Shown: piece after piece, positions 16,134 through 23,446 of the stretch
Position numbering within the stretch: the stretch's first letter is position 1
Layout of the letters: every line of letters begins with the position of its first letter
Assembly: GCA_023251095.1 (NCBI GenBank)
Contig: JAHEZL010000015.1
Span: forward strand, 1 to 64,000
DNA from: Flavobacteriales bacterium
GTDB lineage: Bacteria > Bacteroidota > Bacteroidia > Flavobacteriales_C > GCA-002722245
Reading direction: 5' to 3'
Length of the DNA stretch: 64,000 nt
The notes under the pieces: generated by a model
What the model was told of the DNA's origin: nothing
Seen by the model: only the letters and a program-made list of their open reading frames with translations
Database searches by the model: none
Made by a program: the position numbers and the translations under genes

Positions 16134-17951
16134 ATGAAAAAGAAAGGGATATTATTTTTTCTTCTTGTTTCTGTTTGTATTGTCATAGCATGGCAAAAAC
16201 AATCACAGATAAAAGCAGGCGACCAGATAAAACTATATTTACTCAAAGAGATTCATGGAGTGCAAAAGGCGCTTTCGAAGGGCGCAACCTTAAATATAAA
16301 TGAGTTAATGCAAGCGTATCATACTTCACGTAAGCATTACAAACACATTGAATTTTTTGTAGAATACTGGTCACCGCGCGAAGCAAAATATTTTATCAAT
16401 GGTGCGTTGGTTCCGAAACACGATGAGGAGATAGGCACTGAACCTCGACCTCCGCAGGGATTTCAGCGCATTGAAGAGTTGTTGTATGATGAGCATTTAG
16501 ATACTTTGGAAGTACATCGCGAGATTAAATTGCTTTCTACTCAATTTAAAAATCTGGAAGAATATTATAGTACTATCGACATAAAAGAGGAGTTGTTGTT
16601 GGAGATGTGTCAGATGGAATTGTTCAGGATTGCAGCCATGAATTTAAACGGTTACGACGCTACAATTTCAAAAACAAATGTACAAGAAGCCCAATGGAGT
16701 TTGGAAGGTTTGGAAAAGGTTGTTATTTTGTACGCAAATGCCGATGCGCGCACAAAATTTTTGGCCAGAACCCTGAACCAAAACTTAAAGGCAGCATCGG
16801 CATTCCTTTTGGCAAACAGGGATTACGATACTTTTAACCGATTGGATTTTATCGTATTGCACATCAATGAACTCAATCGGTGTTTTATAAAATTGCACAA
16901 TGAATTGGGTTTAGCGTGGAATTCTAATAAGCAGGCCCTCAATTTACAGGAAGGATTTTTGTTCGGACAAGAGAGTTTTAATCTGCAGTATTTTTCTATT
17001 TATTACGAGGATACCCTTCATTTAAAAGAGCAGGCGGAACTCGGAAAAAAATTATTTTACGATCCTTTGCTTTCCGGAAATAATTCCCGCTCGTGCGCTA
17101 CCTGTCACAATCCTTCTTTAGGTTTTAGTGATGGTTTGCAAAAAGGATTGGCGATGGATGGAAATTCTCTGGGGCGCAACACGCCCACCTTGCTGAATGT
17201 CATTTATCAGAAAGCATTTTTTCACGATGGTCGCGCATATCAATTGGAACAGCAGATTGCAGATGTGATTGGCAATCCCCATGAAATGCAAAGTTCTTTA
17301 GAAGAAGCGGTGGAAAAATTAAAAACAAATACAGCATACAAAGCACTTTTTTCTCAGGCTTTTTCAGGAACACAAGATGCGGTGATCACAGAATATACGG
17401 TGCAAAAAGCACTTGCTGAATATGAAAAAACTTTGTTGTCTTTCAACAGTCGTTTCGATCAGTATTTGCGGGGAGATAAAAGCAAATTGAATGCAAGAGA
17501 AATCAACGGCTACAATGTTTTTGCAGGAAAAGCATTGTGCGGATCCTGTCATTTTTTGCCTTTGTTCAATGGAACTGTTCCGCCTTTTTTCAGTGATTCG
17601 GAATATGAAGTTTTAGGAACACCGGAATTTTCCGACAATAAAAATTTAGATCCTGATATGGGGCGTTCTGAAATTACAAGAGTAAAAGAACAGGCTTATG
17701 CTTTTAAAACGCCAACAGTGCGCAATACTGAGCTTACCGGGCCTTACATGCACAACGGTGTGTACAGAGATTTATCGCAGGTAATTGATTTTTATGTGAA
17801 AGGAGGAGGAGCTGGTTTAGGTTTTTCAGTGCCCAATCAAACCCTTCCTTTTGATTCGCTGCAATTGTCTAAAGTGGAAAAAGAAGATTTGATATTGTTT
17901 ATTAAAAGTTTGACGGATACCTCATCTCTAATGCTGTACCGTTCGAACTGA
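16134..17951 (+). CDS. di-haem cytochrome c peroxidase (CCP/MauG-like) with N-terminal helical domain
   Basis: A 605-residue periplasmic protein. A signal sequence or anchor (MKKKGILFFLLVSVCIVIAW) leads into about 270 residues of helical sequence of no family I can name with certainty. The peroxidase part has two haem-attachment motifs, CATCH (Cys321-His325) and CGSCH (Cys469-His473). Typical CCP segments surround them (GKKLFYDPLLSGNNSRSCAT, GRNTPTLLNVIY, KTPTVRNTELTGPYMHNGVY). Classical CCPs are about 330-350 residues, so the N-terminal domain is an addition and may carry an electron-donor or partner site. The protein would reduce peroxide or oxidise a protein partner. A second copy of its last 33 codons lies 5.4 kb downstream. 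Confidence 0.88.
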   Translation: MKKKGILFFLLVSVCIVIAWQKQSQIKAGDQIKLYLLKEIHGVQKALSKGATLNINELMQAYHTSRKHYKHIEFFVEYWSPREAKYFINGALVPKHDEEIGTEPRPPQGFQRIEELLYDEHLDTLEVHREIKLLSTQFKNLEEYYSTIDIKEELLLEMCQMELFRIAAMNLNGYDATISKTNVQEAQWSLEGLEKVVILYANADARTKFLARTLNQNLKAASAFLLANRDYDTFNRLDFIVLHINELNRCFIKLHNELGLAWNSNKQALNLQEGFLFGQESFNLQYFSIYYEDTLHLKEQAELGKKLFYDPLLSGNNSRSCATCHNPSLGFSDGLQKGLAMDGNSLGRNTPTLLNVIYQKAFFHDGRAYQLEQQIADVIGNPHEMQSSLEEAVEKLKTNTAYKALFSQAFSGTQDAVITEYTVQKALAEYEKTLLSFNSRFDQYLRGDKSKLNAREINGYNVFAGKALCGSCHFLPLFNGTVPPFFSDSEYEVLGTPEFSDNKNLDPDMGRSEITRVKEQAYAFKTPTVRNTELTGPYMHNGVYRDLSQVIDFYVKGGGAGLGFSVPNQTLPFDSLQLSKVEKEDLILFIKSLTDTSSLMLYRSN

Positions 17952-18059: not shown

Positions 18060-18704
18060 ATGGCAAGTTTTTTTAAAAAAGCAATGGGTATTTTTGTTGA
18101 ATTCGATGAAAATACCAATAATGAAGTACCCCCACTTTCAAGTCCGGTGCAGGGGATTTCAAGTGACGTTTCACGCGCTCCTGAGCATCACGAAGAAGCC
18201 CAAAAATTTGAAAAATATTTCGATAAACTTTTTGAACAGGCGAATTTTCCCGGTCCCGATTATTTTGAGTTTTACAAAATGATGGAAACTTTGGAGGCCC
18301 ACATTCATGATGAAAAATCCCGACTTTCAGCTACTTTTGCATCCCTTAGTATTCAGGGGCTTACTAAAAAAACGTTGATTGATACTGCGAATAAATACAG
18401 ATTGATTATTGAGAAAGACAAAGCGGATTTTGAACTTGCATTGAGTGATAAATTAAAGGCAGAAGTTGGTCAAAGACAGCAAGAACTGCAAGCTCTTGAG
18501 AAGAAAATAGTTGCTAATTCAGAACAAATACAAAAGCTAACGAAAGAAATTTCAGAATCTCAGGTACTTATCGGCACTTTGAAAACAGAAGTGCTGGAAG
18601 CAGAAAATAAGCTGACCAAAAATGGTAATGGTTACCAGTTAGCAAGTCAGGCGGTACTCAATAAAATTACTACAGATATCCAAAAAATTCAATCAACTAT
18701 TTAA
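18060..18704 (+). CDS. coiled-coil protein of unknown function, first gene of the SBP-OmpA/ABC operon
   Basis: A 214-residue soluble protein with no signal peptide or membrane helix. The N-terminus (about 1-45, MASFFKKAMGIFVEFDE then a Pro/Ser-rich stretch) looks flexible. Residues about 45-115 are helical, and residues about 120-190 form a strong coiled coil (for example KAEVGQRQQELQALEKKI). I recognise no named family. It starts eight bases before the next gene's intergenic boundary and heads six same-strand genes. Since the second gene encodes a membrane-anchored coiled-coil protein, a plausible role is a cytoplasmic partner that assembles on it. Weak likeness to PspA-type proteins (long antiparallel helices) is an impression only. 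Confidence 0.75.
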   Translation: MASFFKKAMGIFVEFDENTNNEVPPLSSPVQGISSDVSRAPEHHEEAQKFEKYFDKLFEQANFPGPDYFEFYKMMETLEAHIHDEKSRLSATFASLSIQGLTKKTLIDTANKYRLIIEKDKADFELALSDKLKAEVGQRQQELQALEKKIVANSEQIQKLTKEISESQVLIGTLKTEVLEAENKLTKNGNGYQLASQAVLNKITTDIQKIQSTI

Positions 18705-18712
18705 TATAGAAT

Positions 18713-19666
18713 ATGGAAACTAATATGTTCCCCACAACACCTCAAGAATTAAAATCTTACTGGAATCGTCCCGGAGGTAAATTCGGAGTGCTTGCCGGTT
18801 TGGCAATTCTTGGATTGGTTGGCTATTATGTGTTTCCGATTCTTACAGAAATAACCTGGAACACTATCAATTTTGGTATTGCCTTGGTTTGCCTCGCTCT
18901 CTTTTTATATGCGGTAACCAATCGTAAATTAAGACTTAGCCTTTTTTATTTCTATGAAATACTGATGAAAAAATTGGTTGGGATTGTAATTGAATTGGAT
19001 CCCTTCATTATCGCTGAAGATTATTTGCGTGATATGGAAGAACAAAGAGAAAAATTATACACGCAGTCCATAGAAGTTGATGGTCAAAAGGAAAAAATCA
19101 ACATGAAAATCAAAGAAAAGAAAGATGAAATTGCTAAGTTAATGACCAAAGCTCAGGTGGCAAAGGACAAAAATATGTTGCCGGAACTTGGAAACGCTAC
19201 ACGACAAATCGGACGTTTGAATGAGTACATCGGACAGTTGACTCCTATTCATGATAATTTATTCCGAATAGGAGACTACTTAACTAAAATCCACAAGAAT
19301 AGCGCCTATCTTATTGAAGATGCCAAAAATGAGTTGGAGCTGAAAAAAGATTTATACAAATCGGTTACCTCCGGAAATGAGGCTTTGAGTTCTGCCTTGA
19401 AAATATTTAAAGGGGATCCCGAAAAAAAATTACTGGTGGAACAATCCATGGAATTTTTGAAAGAAGACATTGCCGGGAAACTGGCGAATATGAAAAAAGC
19501 AATTGGTTATTCTGCCGACTTTATGCAATCCATCGATTTGGATAATGCTACTTATGAGCAGGAAGGATTGCGCTTACTGGAAAGTGTTAATCCTGACAAC
19601 GGATATAAATTGAATACTATCAGCGTTCCGTCACCTGCAAGTAACTACAACGATTTATTAAAATAA
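18713..19666 (+). CDS. two-TM protein with long PspA/ESCRT-III-like helical domain
   Basis: A 317-residue protein. Two membrane helices (about 24-43 and 47-68) are followed by a long charged helical region (about 75-290). The start of that region, VIELDPFIIAEDYLRDMEEQ and REKLYTQSIEVDGQKEKI, is reminiscent of the first hairpin of PspA/Vipp1 proteins (DP-x-K followed by an RDMEEQ-type helix). I infer a membrane-tethered helical-hairpin domain facing the cytoplasm. True PspA lacks transmembrane segments, so this is not PspA itself. It lies eight bases after the preceding gene and 25 before the solute-binding gene, within the operon. A role in envelope maintenance or as a scaffold for the ABC complex is inference. 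Confidence 0.75.
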   Translation: METNMFPTTPQELKSYWNRPGGKFGVLAGLAILGLVGYYVFPILTEITWNTINFGIALVCLALFLYAVTNRKLRLSLFYFYEILMKKLVGIVIELDPFIIAEDYLRDMEEQREKLYTQSIEVDGQKEKINMKIKEKKDEIAKLMTKAQVAKDKNMLPELGNATRQIGRLNEYIGQLTPIHDNLFRIGDYLTKIHKNSAYLIEDAKNELELKKDLYKSVTSGNEALSSALKIFKGDPEKKLLVEQSMEFLKEDIAGKLANMKKAIGYSADFMQSIDLDNATYEQEGLRLLESVNPDNGYKLNTISVPSPASNYNDLLK

Positions 19667-19691
19667 AACCCTCAATTAAAATAAATAATAC

Positions 19692-21458
19692 ATGTCAATT
19701 AAAGTAAAAACATCCGGAAAAGTAGTCATCATCGCCCTTATATTAGGAGCGATTTTTTGTGCTAAAATATTTTGGTGGGACAACCGACCACAAGATGCCA
19801 AAGCATCCACAGAAATCGGTCACCTGGCTTTGCCTGATGCGCCTGAAGCTTCGTTAAAGGGGAATTCAGAATTGCTTGCTTTGCCTAGCAATGAGGAATC
19901 AGTAAATGGTGGAACAAAAATTAGCTGGGAGATAATGGCATGGAACGCGCAGTTCCCACTGATGTATGCGAATGGCGGCGCTTTAACAACAAAAGGGTCG
20001 TTATTAGATAAAGCGAACTTACAAGTAAGCATTATCCGTCAGGATGATTGCAATAAATCAATTGCCGACATCGTGAAATTTGCGCAAGACTATAAAAATA
20101 ATCCAGAAATTCCAGGAGTTTTTGCTTCTTATATGGGTGATGGAATGCCTGCGTTCTTTGCTGCTTTAAGCGCGGAATTAGAGCCGCTGGGGCCTGAATT
20201 TCAACCTATCGCTTTTTACGCCATGGGTAAATCTTTTGGTGAAGATAAAGTAATGGGACCTGCTGAATGGAAAACAAATCCTAAATCGGCTTTGGGTAAA
20301 ACCTGTGCTTGTTATTTGAGAGATGGCGATATGAACATCCTCTTGAAATGGGCAGGTGACAATGGTTTGAAAGTGAATCCTGACGAAACTACTTATGATA
20401 AAGATGCTATCAATTTAATTGCAGCCAACGACTTTTTAGATGCTTGTAACAAATACATCACAGGATATAAAGAAACCAGAAAAATTGTAAAAGACGGTAA
20501 AAAATTAAATGAAGAAGTTACTGTAGGTGTTGATGCTGTTGCTACTTGGACTCCCGGTGACGTGAACATTGCAAAACAAAAAGGTGGTTTGGTGAGCATT
20601 GCTTCTACAAAGGAATATTCTTCTCAAATGCCATGTATCACCATTACCATCAAAAAATTTGCATACGACCACAGAACAGATATCGAAAATCTGATTATGG
20701 CTTTGGGTCAGGCGGGTGATCAAGTAAGATCTTTCAATGAGGCAAAAAAATTCGCTGCTGATGTTTCTGCCAAAGTATACAACGAGCAAACCGGTGATTA
20801 CTGGTTAACTTATTACAATGGAAAAACAGAACAGGACATTCAGGGATTAACTACTCCCTTAGGAGGTTCCATGGCCTTCAATTTACAGGATGCTGCAAAT
20901 ATGTTTGGGATGGGAAAAGATGGTGTGGACAGGTACAAAATCGTTTATACTACTTTCGGAGATATTCTTTCAAAAATGTATCCTGAATTAATGGCTACAT
21001 ATCCTGCTTATCAAAAAGTGGTGGACAAATCATTTTTACAATCAGTGATTGCAAATCATCCTGAATTATTGACAGGCGAGGCTTTGAAAGTGACTTATGC
21101 AAAAGAAATTACCAGTGAAGTTTCTTCTAAATCTTACCAGATTCAGTTTGAAACAGGTAGTGCAGTAATTCTTCCTGAGTCTTATTCTGAATTGGATGAA
21201 ATCTTAAAAAGCTCCGTTGTTGCAGAAGGTTTGAATGTAGGTGTTTATGGACACACTGATAACACCGGTAATCCAGATGCCAATCAAAGATTGTCCGAGC
21301 AAAGAGCGAATGCGGTTAAAAGTTATTTAATAAGTAAAGGATTACTCACCAGTAGAATTGAAGCTAAAGGGTTAGGACAAAGCGAACCTATAGCTGAAAA
21401 TGCTACTGCTGCAGGCAGGGCGAAAAACCGTCGTGTTCAAATTGTTTTAGGGCAATAA
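19692..21458 (+). CDS. substrate-binding protein-OmpA fusion (NitT/TauT or phosphate SBP-like plus peptidoglycan-binding domain)
   Basis: A 588-residue periplasmic protein. An N-terminal membrane anchor (about 9-26) and linker lead into a bilobal solute-binding-like domain at about 70-460 (KISWEIMAWNAQFPLMYANG, GVFASYMGDGMPAF, VDAVATWTPGDVNIAKQKGG), similar to the binding proteins of NitT/TauT-type importers. Residues about 478-588 form an OmpA C-terminal domain (IQFETGSAVILPESYSELDE, GHTDNTGN, GLGQSEP, RAKNRRVQIV). Asp523 and Arg538 match the pair that grips diaminopimelate in peptidoglycan. The fusion would tether ligand sensing to the cell wall while being anchored in the inner membrane. 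The permease and ATPase follow four and one bases apart. The ligand is unknown; the conserved polar pocket would need a structure to read. Confidence 0.85.
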   Translation: MSIKVKTSGKVVIIALILGAIFCAKIFWWDNRPQDAKASTEIGHLALPDAPEASLKGNSELLALPSNEESVNGGTKISWEIMAWNAQFPLMYANGGALTTKGSLLDKANLQVSIIRQDDCNKSIADIVKFAQDYKNNPEIPGVFASYMGDGMPAFFAALSAELEPLGPEFQPIAFYAMGKSFGEDKVMGPAEWKTNPKSALGKTCACYLRDGDMNILLKWAGDNGLKVNPDETTYDKDAINLIAANDFLDACNKYITGYKETRKIVKDGKKLNEEVTVGVDAVATWTPGDVNIAKQKGGLVSIASTKEYSSQMPCITITIKKFAYDHRTDIENLIMALGQAGDQVRSFNEAKKFAADVSAKVYNEQTGDYWLTYYNGKTEQDIQGLTTPLGGSMAFNLQDAANMFGMGKDGVDRYKIVYTTFGDILSKMYPELMATYPAYQKVVDKSFLQSVIANHPELLTGEALKVTYAKEITSEVSSKSYQIQFETGSAVILPESYSELDEILKSSVVAEGLNVGVYGHTDNTGNPDANQRLSEQRANAVKSYLISKGLLTSRIEAKGLGQSEPIAENATAAGRAKNRRVQIVLGQ

Positions 21459-21462
21459 ATTA

Positions 21463-22251
21463 ATGAAAGAATTAAAAAAGTTATTTACTCCGCTATCCAA
21501 TATAAGCAGCAAGTTATATGTTGTTTTAGTGGTTGTATGTTGTGCGATCGCCATTGGTTTGTGGCAAATTTTTGCTGTTGGAGGGTTGATACCAACACCA
21601 GGCAAAATCGCAGAATCTATATTGAAAATTCTGCGGTCAAATAATTTTTATGACAATCTTTTTATCAGTTTAACGCTGACCATTAAAGGAATGGGCTATT
21701 CAATCGTAATTGCATTGCTGATTTGTTATTTGTCTTTAATTCCATTTTTTAATCCCTTAGCCAAGTTTATCATCAAATGCCGTTATCTTACTTTAACAGG
21801 GTTGATTTTTCTATTTACTCTTTTAACGAGCAATGGACATAATTTAAAAATGAGTTTATTGATTTTTGGAATTGTTCCGTTTTTTGTCACTTCCTTTTTA
21901 TCCATTATTGATGCTGTTAATGAGCAAGAATACGAGTTATGTAAAACTTTGCGGATGGGTAGCTGGCAGACTTTGTGGGAGGTAGTGATTGTTGGAAGGC
22001 TGGATCAGGTTTTGGAAGTTCTCCGTCAGAATTTTGCGATTGCCTGGATGATGATCACTATGGTTGAAGGATTAAGTATGTCGGAAGGTGGTTTAGGAAC
22101 GATGCTTATTAAATCCAATAAGTATATTGACCTTGGAACTGTATTCGCTATTTTATTTATCATTTTTGGCATTGGTGTTTGTTTTGATTTTTTACTGAAG
22201 AAAATCCGCTTCTGGTTATTCCCTTATACACGCTTACAAATCAGAAAATAA
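21463..22251 (+). CDS. ABC transporter permease, NitT/TauT type
   Basis: A 262-residue inner-membrane protein with about six hydrophobic helices. It carries the permease cytoplasmic EAA-like loop EYELCKTLRMGSWQTLWEVV at about 159-180, which docks on the ATPase. The opening segment ending GGLIPTPGKIAESILKI resembles SsuC/TauC-type permeases (the usual P-x-P-x-x-V motif). It starts four bases after the SBP-OmpA gene and its stop is one base from the ATPase start, so the three form one importer module. Substrate specificity cannot be read from the permease. It may work as a signalling or force-coupled complex rather than a nutrient importer, given the unusual binding-protein partner. Confidence 0.88.
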   Translation: MKELKKLFTPLSNISSKLYVVLVVVCCAIAIGLWQIFAVGGLIPTPGKIAESILKILRSNNFYDNLFISLTLTIKGMGYSIVIALLICYLSLIPFFNPLAKFIIKCRYLTLTGLIFLFTLLTSNGHNLKMSLLIFGIVPFFVTSFLSIIDAVNEQEYELCKTLRMGSWQTLWEVVIVGRLDQVLEVLRQNFAIAWMMITMVEGLSMSEGGLGTMLIKSNKYIDLGTVFAILFIIFGIGVCFDFLLKKIRFWLFPYTRLQIRK

Positions 22252-22252
22252 G

Positions 22253-23047
22253 ATGTATAAAAAAGAGGAATTAATATTGAAAGTTGAAAACATCTATTTG
22301 AGCTATGATAAGCCGATATTGAGAGATGTCAATTTTGAAGTGCATAATATAACTCGTCCTAATCTTAAGCAGGGACAAGTTGTTTCTCTAGTCGGACGAA
22401 GCGGAATCGGCAAAACACAACTGTTTAAAATTCTTGCGGGCTTACAAGAACCAAAATCCGGAACTGTTAGGATTGGAAAAGATTTACATCCCGTTGAAGC
22501 AGGAGAAGTAGGTATTGTTCCTCAAAATTATATTCTTTTTAATCACAGAACCATTGTCGAAAATCTGAAGCTGGGTTTGAGGGGTTCTGTAAATAAAATG
22601 AGCGAGAAAGAAAAAACAGAATTGATTAATGATTATGCAAATAAATTCGGACTCAAAGAGCATTTGAAAAAATATCCTATGCAGCTTTCCGGAGGTCAGC
22701 GCCAGCGTGTAAGCATCATTCAACAAATACTTACAGGAAATAAATTTATTTTATTAGATGAACCTTTTTCAGGTTTGGATCCTGTCATAAAAGACAAAGT
22801 TTTAGAATTATTAGTGAGCATTTCTCAGTTGGATGAGCTAAACACTTTAGTGATTGTGAGTCATGATATTGAAAATGCGCTTGCCATTTCGGATACTGCA
22901 TTTATTTTGGCTAATGAAGAACATAAAGAAGGTTCTACAATTACAGAATCAATTGATTTGATAGAGATGGGATTGAGTTGGGATCCCGAAATTAAGCACA
23001 ATAAACATTTTCAGGATTTAGTAGCTCAAATGAAATTCAGAATGTAG
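22253..23047 (+). CDS. ABC transporter ATP-binding protein
   Basis: A 264-residue ATPase with all motifs present: Walker A GRSGIGKT (48-55), Q-loop Gln91, signature LSGGQ (145-149), Walker B ILLDEP with Asp169 and Glu170, and H-loop His204 in VIVSHD. After Walker A the usual Ser/Thr is Gln56 (GKTQ), a modest oddity outside the catalytic core. It powers the adjacent permease, which starts the shared module; the genes are one base apart. It is followed after eight bases by a small lipoprotein gene. It resembles the NitT/TauT ATPases overall and lacks an extra C-terminal regulatory domain. Confidence 0.92.
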   Translation: MYKKEELILKVENIYLSYDKPILRDVNFEVHNITRPNLKQGQVVSLVGRSGIGKTQLFKILAGLQEPKSGTVRIGKDLHPVEAGEVGIVPQNYILFNHRTIVENLKLGLRGSVNKMSEKEKTELINDYANKFGLKEHLKKYPMQLSGGQRQRVSIIQQILTGNKFILLDEPFSGLDPVIKDKVLELLVSISQLDELNTLVIVSHDIENALAISDTAFILANEEHKEGSTITESIDLIEMGLSWDPEIKHNKHFQDLVAQMKFRM

Positions 23048-23055
23048 GTTTTCAA

Positions 23056-23322
23056 ATGAAAAAAAGTTTAATATTAATTTTATTTGTTTTTCTATTAACC
23101 TCCGGTTGTTCCACTACTTTTGGCGGAACAGTATTGGTACTCTCTTTCAGTGATATTCTCTTATATGTCTTAATTGCATTTGTTCTGGCATTAGCAATTG
23201 CGTTTAAAAAAATAGAAAGGAGAAAAAAGACATTTTGGATTTGGTTTATTATTAACTTGATTCTTACCCCTTTATCAGGTTTTATTTATTTGTTATTTCT
23301 GTTTAGTAAGAAAGCCGAATAA
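23056..23322 (+). CDS. small lipoprotein with membrane helices, last gene of the ABC operon
   Basis: An 88-residue protein. The N-terminus has a lipoprotein signal (MKKSLILILFVFLLTSGCST, lipobox LTSGC with Cys18). The rest holds two further hydrophobic helices (about 29-50 and 60-84) separated by a basic loop KKIERRKK. I know no family for it. Alternatively the N-terminal segment is a plain membrane helix and the protein a three-TM integral protein. Its tight spacing (eight bases after the ATPase gene) argues that it belongs to the operon. It is the last gene before the duplicated peroxidase tail. Confidence 0.7.
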   Translation: MKKSLILILFVFLLTSGCSTTFGGTVLVLSFSDILLYVLIAFVLALAIAFKKIERRKKTFWIWFIINLILTPLSGFIYLLFLFSKKAE

Positions 23323-23347
23323 CAGAGTTCCCATCTTATATCAAAAC

Positions 23348-23446
23348 CAAACCCTTCCTTTTGATTCGTTGAAGCTGAGTAAAAATGAAAAAGAAGATTT
23401 GATATTGTTTATTAAAAGTTTGACGGATACGACTTCCTATAAATAG
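23348..23446 (+). pseudogene. remnant: last 33 codons of a cytochrome c peroxidase gene
   Basis: In the frame starting at 23348 the sequence reads QTLPFDSLKLSKNEKEDLIL then FIKSLTDTTSYK and a stop. The end of the intact peroxidase gene (about 17837-17950) encodes NQTLPFDSLQLSKVEKEDLI and LFIKSLTDTSS. DNA identity is very high over the central 50 bases (23391-23430 equals 17881-17910 and beyond) and falls towards the stop. There is no start codon or upstream coding sequence, so this is a gene-end fragment. It likely came from a diverged tandem copy of the peroxidase gene. Confidence 0.85.

Follow-up and report, generated by a model that had tools for sequence, protein, structure and literature searches.

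What does an operon do that joins a PspA-like membrane protein to a solute transporter with a putatively wall-tethered binding protein, and who else carries it? The question is raised by a locus in the first 64,000 nucleotides of contig JAHEZL010000015.1 from a Flavobacteriales bacterium (assembly GCA_023251095.1), a stretch that we refer to as a whole as the window. Six plus-strand open reading frames (ORFs) at 18060-23322 encode a coiled-coil protein (gene 1), a PspA/Vipp1-like protein (gene 2), a solute-binding protein (SBP) fused to an OmpA domain (gene 3), the permease and ATPase of an ATP-binding cassette (ABC) transporter (genes 4 and 5) and a small membrane protein (gene 6). The intergenic gaps are 8, 25, 4, 1 and 8 bases, so the coordinates and close spacing given in the original prediction, which was made from the sequence alone, are correct. 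Genes 1-5 form a cassette found in Bacteroidota chromosomes and in phages, many of them huge, and the trees described below indicate repeated movement between the two.

We scanned 84,980 genomes with an alignment of the SBP and obtained 154 relatives, the best 80 of which were kept; the scan used patterns derived from Bacteroidota, and the bacterial sampling is in effect one of that phylum. By title, almost all of the best 80 of 154 were Bacteroidota (Chitinophagaceae, Cytophagales, Hymenobacter), with two odd titles of metagenome-assembled genomes, one Chlorobiota and one Williamsia. Genes 1-5 were found in the same order and on the same strand in 69 of 88 bacterial loci, most of the others being cut by contig ends, and were complete and in order in 50 of 61 distinct viral contigs. 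When all flanking ORFs were clustered, only the five cassette families recurred widely in both the bacterial and the viral sets, and the next flank cluster was simply antisense to gene 3. Because the order recurs in both sets while the flanks are unrelated, it is far beyond what chance would give. The expectation that the gene order would be conserved is thus borne out for genes 1-5 and fails for gene 6, which was detected in 2 of the 80 relatives (loci L034 and L040, both close kin) and is accessory, outside the conserved cassette. Its product had been called a small lipoprotein; the lipobox-like start is there, together with two further hydrophobic segments, and no family match was found for it.

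Within Bacteroidota the distribution is sporadic, the SBP being present in 8 of 395 genomes across the phylum. No close copy exists among 59 relatives of the window genome, two of which hold a divergent version (G441, from the window's own genus, and G481). A collection of plasmids contained no SBP relative. One bacterium, Parachryseolinea silvisoli, has a second, partial copy in which only genes 2-3 were detected (L041) besides a complete operon (L039).

The viral copies came to light in a tblastn search of phage records, which led to LR756500.1, a deposited 462-kb genome of an uncultured phage with the five genes in order. Scans of IMG/VR gave 15 and then 66 loci, corresponding after removal of duplicates to the 61 distinct viral contigs; 21 viral contigs are at least 200 kb long. 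Among 40 viral contigs tested, a T4-type Gp23 capsid protein was found in 13 and a terminase above the cut-off in 16, and the T4-type portal added one contig (G299), bringing the total with a hallmark gene to 18. Gp23 and terminase occur together in twelve of these 18, and 12 have a length of at least 200 kb, the largest reaching 578 kb. The tail sheath (PF04984) was tried as a further marker and dropped as uninformative, as it missed even contigs bearing Gp23.

Could the viral contigs be misassigned bacterial DNA, and the phage link an artefact? IMG/VR does contain such cases: in IMGVR_UViG_2627853892_000001 (L116/L166) the cassette groups inside Hymenobacter and is probably host DNA flanking a provirus, for which reason we rejected it as a phage copy, and more than half of the 40 tested contigs lack a T4-type hallmark. 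Against this stand the 18 contigs that encode Gp23, a T4-type terminase or the portal, the deposited phage genome LR756500.1, and flanks typical of phages: around the cassette in seven phage contigs lie genes for thymidylate synthase, RNA and DNA ligases, NADAR, PARP and HNH endonucleases. We regard a wholesale artefact as extremely improbable. Phage origin is supported for the 18 hallmark contigs and unproven for the others.

The phage copies keep all ABC motifs, including the H-loop histidine in 56 of 56, from which we conclude that the cassette genes are under functional constraint in phages. In locus L187 the order is kept although the genes are spread over 14 kb. Two terminase-bearing contigs (L128 and L129, in G309 and G310) retain no more than a fragment of the SBP gene, which may be a copy in decay. 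The pooled flanks of seven phage loci also encode, close to the cassette, two band-7/SPFH proteins, a family whose members are known to partner PspA in bacteria. A separate gene for an NMT1-like (TAXI-type) SBP occurs near the cassette in five phage-side loci (e.g. L121:13729-14658). PHROGs has no family for gene 1, gene 2 or the SBP part of gene 3, and a fold search of BFVD returned no SBP-OmpA relative, only remote Bug-type SBPs.

In an unrooted tree of the SBP-OmpA protein, the bacterial sequences occupy three separate positions among those from viruses: the window clade, with phages both as sister and nested within it; Hymenobacter; and a clade of the version that we label the Flavobacterium type (a guessed name for the form bearing an AAA+ ATPase), together with LR756500.1. 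A tree of genes 3-5 joined, restricted to phages with capsid or terminase, forces at least four changes between virus and bacterium. As the Bacteroidota copies fall in three places among the viral ones, we conclude from these trees that the cassette has moved repeatedly between phages and Bacteroidota chromosomes; being unrooted and drawn from a narrow bacterial sample, they do not give the direction, and no phage-to-host direction is claimed. One locus (L170, in G327) is a mosaic, with a gene 3 product 64% and a gene 2 product only 21% identical to those of the window.

The copy in G441 lies at another locus than that of the window, and its gene 3 product is 66% identical to that of LR756500.1 and 35% to that of the window. 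This version adds a sixth gene, an AAA+ ATPase (AAA plus AAA_lid_6), which is also present in three genomes of another family, G084, G202 and G289 (AAA+ loci L206-L208 and L213); in G084 and G289 the operon adjoins ATP synthase genes. The AAA+ partner is absent from the whole of the window genome (G000), and 12 of 13 phage records gave no match to it, the thirteenth (G302) giving a marginal one (E 7e-4).

The original prediction had likened gene 2 by eye to PspA and the ESCRT-III-like proteins, and we re-examined this likeness by profile and by fold. Against Pfam PspA_IM30 the window protein scores 16.6 bits (E 0.0063), below the curated cut-off of 33.9; it is the sole PspA_IM30-like locus found in the genome, and five of 62 members of the gene 2 family match the model, the best with E 1e-6. 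A search of PDB sequences with the window protein alone returned nothing. The family profile was needed, and that built from the 62 relatives has Vipp1 chains as its top matches (E 3.7e-6), ahead of designed coiled coils and with collinearity across residues 22-148 of Vipp1. An AlphaFold2 (AF2) model from a 56-row alignment reached a mean predicted local distance difference test (pLDDT) of 78, up to 98 in the hairpin, and a predicted template modelling score (pTM) of 0.53. In this model a hydrophobic N-terminal region at about 22-95 (helices 22-69 and 71-95) is followed by a hairpin (98-152/156-231), helices 236-273 and 277-292, a linker and the C-terminal motif YNDLLK, and the helices after the anchor fit helices 1-5 of PspA. 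The 12 best Foldseek matches in the PDB are all Vipp1 or PspA (best E 2.9e-3, probability 1.00), the hairpin superposing with a TM-score of 0.83 at 2.7 Å on Vipp1 (6zvs) and of 0.76 at 1.8 Å on E. coli PspA (4whe).

That gene 2 might be a generic membrane-anchored coiled coil, such as a signalling receptor, resembling PspA by helical coincidence, is suggested by the sub-threshold Pfam score and by the coiled coils of SMC proteins and chemoreceptors that appear lower in the fold list. With Vipp1 placed first by the profile, all 12 top folds being Vipp1/PspA and the post-anchor helices matching PspA, we consider such a coincidence very unlikely, and the likeness seen by eye is upheld: the helical region does not model as an unrelated fold. 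Given the modest E-values we describe the protein as PspA/Vipp1-like and not as a proven member of the PspA family; it is filed as PspA-like because a hydrophobic anchor takes the place of amphipathic helix 0.

Two further features of gene 2 are conserved. The pattern [FYW]xx[LFYM][LFI] occurs in the last 14 residues in 74 of 79 bacterial and 37 of 74 viral rows, compared with 2.1 and 1.3 rows in shuffled controls, an excess that is not to be read as a probability, the rows being related and some viral ones duplicates. Pro97, the proline of a D-P motif where the hairpin begins, is invariant among the aligned rows, and this motif may resemble the E-D-P motif of PspA.

Gene 3 carries a hydrophobic N-terminal anchor (residues 11-29) behind a lysine-rich start, with no lipobox, also on inspection by eye; it is followed by the solute-binding domain (about 76-470) and the OmpA domain (486-580). 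The latter matches Pfam with E 4e-22 and is found in 56 of 56 relatives. The SBP part of the window protein escapes all Pfam models, and NMT1 matches three relatives of the protein (best E 1.4e-6). Likewise, an SBP profile gave no real match to any chain among PDB sequences, and a fold search was needed: the modelled domain (pLDDT 95.6, pTM 0.92) matches TauA (E 1e-10), SsuA, NrtA, CmpA and Thi5. By its predicted fold the SBP is of the NitT/TauT type, as originally labelled. In OmpA-like domains an aspartate and an arginine contact diaminopimelate (DAP). Their counterparts in gene 3 are D523 and R538, in a TD..G / LS..RA motif, and the DAP motif is kept in 83 of 84 bacterial and 52 of 59 viral rows. 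Given these intact residues, the OmpA domain is predicted to be fitted for peptidoglycan binding, and together with the membrane anchor this agrees with the proposed fusion of an SBP to a peptidoglycan-binding domain. The invariant residues of the SBP include E184, D185, D213 and D290 and no basic residue, which weakly suggests a cationic ligand, a cation or a metal. The permease and ATPase calls for genes 4 and 5 were also right. Gene 4 shows a likeness to SaoP/TauC in NCBIfam, below the cut-off, and in gene 5 the Walker A, Q-loop, signature, Walker B and H-loop motifs are all intact.

Gene 1 has no predicted transmembrane segment, gave only coiled-coil noise in Pfam and PDB searches, and precedes gene 2 in bacterial and phage loci alike. 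In other Bacteroidota the two are also paired without ABC genes (L018, L021, L022, L025, L026, L028); from this occurrence, the coiled coil and the PspA-like protein are a module of their own.

The coordinates of the operon and of a repeat around it are collected in Table 1. The two copies of this 86-nt direct repeat are 88% identical. They are consistent with a rearrangement or insertion around the operon, and with its arrival by insertion next to the peroxidase gene. In that upstream gene (16134-17951) a MauG-type di-haem peroxidase is preceded by a fused N-terminal part of EfeO/imelysin-like sequence (E 1.4e-8). Rfam gave no match in the window. The Bacteroidetes -33/-7 promoter pattern was absent near the operon and rarer in the window than expected by chance, and a sigma-70 promoter scan stayed at chance level.

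Table 1. Positions in the window of the operon genes and of the repeat copies that flank them.
Feature	Positions	Strand	Basis or remark
86-nt direct repeat, left copy	17835-17920	+	3' end of intact upstream cytochrome c peroxidase gene
Gene 1, 214-aa soluble coiled-coil protein	18060-18704	+	ORF; conserved cassette member, first position
Gene 2, 317-aa membrane-anchored PspA/Vipp1-like (ESCRT-III superfamily-like) protein	18713-19666	+	Profile and AF2 fold
Gene 3, 588-aa SBP-OmpA fusion with N-terminal anchor	19692-21458	+	OmpA match; SBP model
Gene 4, 262-aa ABC permease	21463-22251	+	BPD_transp_1, E 1e-8
Gene 5, 264-aa ABC ATPase	22253-23047	+	ABC_tran, E 3e-28; intact motifs
Gene 6, 88-aa small membrane protein with lipobox-like start; accessory	23056-23322	+	ORF; relatives
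86-nt direct repeat, right copy, directly after the operon	23345-23430	+	In-frame 3' remnant of a second peroxidase copy

Turning to function, we propose that the mobile five-gene cassette encodes one inner-membrane machine, an import-coupled scaffold for the maintenance of the inner membrane and the peptidoglycan, and we give this proposal about an even chance of being right. The PspA-like domain, fixed by its own hydrophobic N-terminus, would polymerise into a scaffold that surrounds the transporter on its cytoplasmic side, with the conserved C-terminal motif of gene 2 docking a partner; assembly into rings or rods and remodelling of membranes are properties predicted by analogy with PspA and Vipp1. 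Gene 3, held between inner membrane and wall, would deliver solute only when the two are in register, and uptake and ATP hydrolysis might in this way be coupled to maintaining the inner membrane against the wall. In operons of the Flavobacterium type the AAA+ ATPase may remodel the scaffold. In the window and phage types, which lack it, scaffold turnover could proceed unaided or, more speculatively, through the ABC ATPase, which might take over this task as the only ATPase of the unit. In phages the cassette would serve to preserve or remodel the envelope of the infected host.

Several points weigh against this reading. Contact between scaffold and transporter is deduced only from gene order, and coupling is not obligatory, since genes 1-2 also occur without the ABC genes. 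Gene 2 lies below the Pfam cut-off for PspA, has a membrane anchor where PspA has its N-terminal amphipathic helix, and reaches only modest Foldseek E-values (2.9e-3). Moreover, as all ABC motifs are intact, the operon may encode an ordinary high-affinity NitT/TauT-type importer, whose OmpA domain only concentrates the SBP at the wall while the PspA-like pair only protects the membrane around it, and which serves phages as a nutrient-uptake set. The complete set of subunits, with its TauA/SsuA/NrtA-like SBP, fits such an importer, as do the second NMT1-like SBP gene near the cassette in some phages and the carriage of pstS by cyanophages (PMC10746233). Nutrient uptake, however, has no need of a PspA-like partner. 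Genes 1-2 accompany the transporter roughly as consistently as its subunits accompany one another; the pair also exists alone, and an SBP tied to both membrane and wall is unusual. We take plain import to be possible and on balance improbable, and put forward a role in envelope sensing or maintenance, as favoured in the original prediction, as a proposal suggested by the gene content.

The sporadic distribution and frequent transfer of the cassette would also suit a system of superinfection exclusion or defence, a wall-tethered complex that blocks DNA entry or repairs the membrane after attack by another phage, and PspA is generally known as an envelope-stress protein induced by phage proteins. 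PADLOC, however, has no model for genes 1, 2 and 4, its matches to genes 3 and 5 are a generic OmpA/MotB and a generic ABC ATPase, and the window genes read on either side of the operon are not defence genes, so that we consider defence unlikely. A bolder reading concerns the phage carriers. Huge phages of several lineages may have long held the ESCRT-III-like scaffold and the wall-tethered ABC module to re-engineer the inner membrane and periplasm of the host, the Bacteroidota operons being partly acquired from them. The aim could be to stabilise a long-lived infected cell or to provide membrane sites for phage replication or assembly. We offer this reading tentatively and think it rather doubtful.

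What goes beyond the original prediction are the phage copies, the missing AAA+ ATPase and the horizontal movement. Most known bacterial PspA and ESCRT-III proteins have no energy-using partner dedicated to them; the cassette offers a naturally AAA+-less example that has an ABC ATPase within one unit. If our reading is true, phages with T4-type capsid genes, many of them huge, supply both a PspA-like membrane protein and a wall-anchored transporter, offering a concrete entry point to how huge phages manage the host envelope. The repeated exchange between phages and Bacteroidota suggests that both benefit from the cassette.

For bacteria this type of operon has already been described in outline, and its distribution in phages is the surprising part. 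One sentence of a 2024 mSystems paper (PMC11237479) describes PspA/TM-Snf7/AAA+ operons, TM denoting transmembrane, with an ABC ATPase, a permease and a PBPB-OmpA protein (example OGG56892.1), and proposes for these AAA+-bearing operons a link between membrane remodelling and solute transport; the paper also gives a Bacteroidetes neighbourhood of PspA, Snf7 and coiled-coil genes (CBH24266.1), and states that it is not known how those PspA homologues that lack an AAA ATPase control their assembly. Those operons share with the cassette a TM-bearing PspA/Snf7-type protein, the ABC ATPase, the permease, the SBP-OmpA protein and a coiled-coil partner. The window type differs in having one PspA-like gene plus the coiled coil and no AAA+ gene genome-wide, and its five-gene form is not named there. 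Carriage by phages is unreported in the main text of that paper and in the openly licensed main texts of the 2020 huge-phage paper, a comparative genomics study of jumbo phages and a 2026 jumbo-phage review. Further full-text searches of openly licensed papers gave no mention of it either, and an annotation that is not indexed there may exist. In a paper on gut huge phages, the pspA-like gene of Jug phages adjoins terD, a setting different from that of the cassette.

Among better-studied systems, gene 2 has in common with PspA and Vipp1 (IM30) the helical hairpin and the helices that follow, by fold and by profile; it differs by its hydrophobic anchor, linker, conserved C-terminal motif and sub-cut-off Pfam score. 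The transporter shares its SBP fold and its permease and ATPase families with NitT/TauT-type importers (TauABC, SsuABC, NrtABCD, CmpABCD), whereas its SBP is TM-anchored and fused to OmpA instead of free or lipid-anchored, and it is accompanied by PspA-like gene partners. In being anchored in a membrane and bearing a peptidoglycan-binding domain of the OmpA family, gene 3 is like MotB, Pal and YiaD; unlike them, it has a solute-binding domain on its tether and is part of a transporter.

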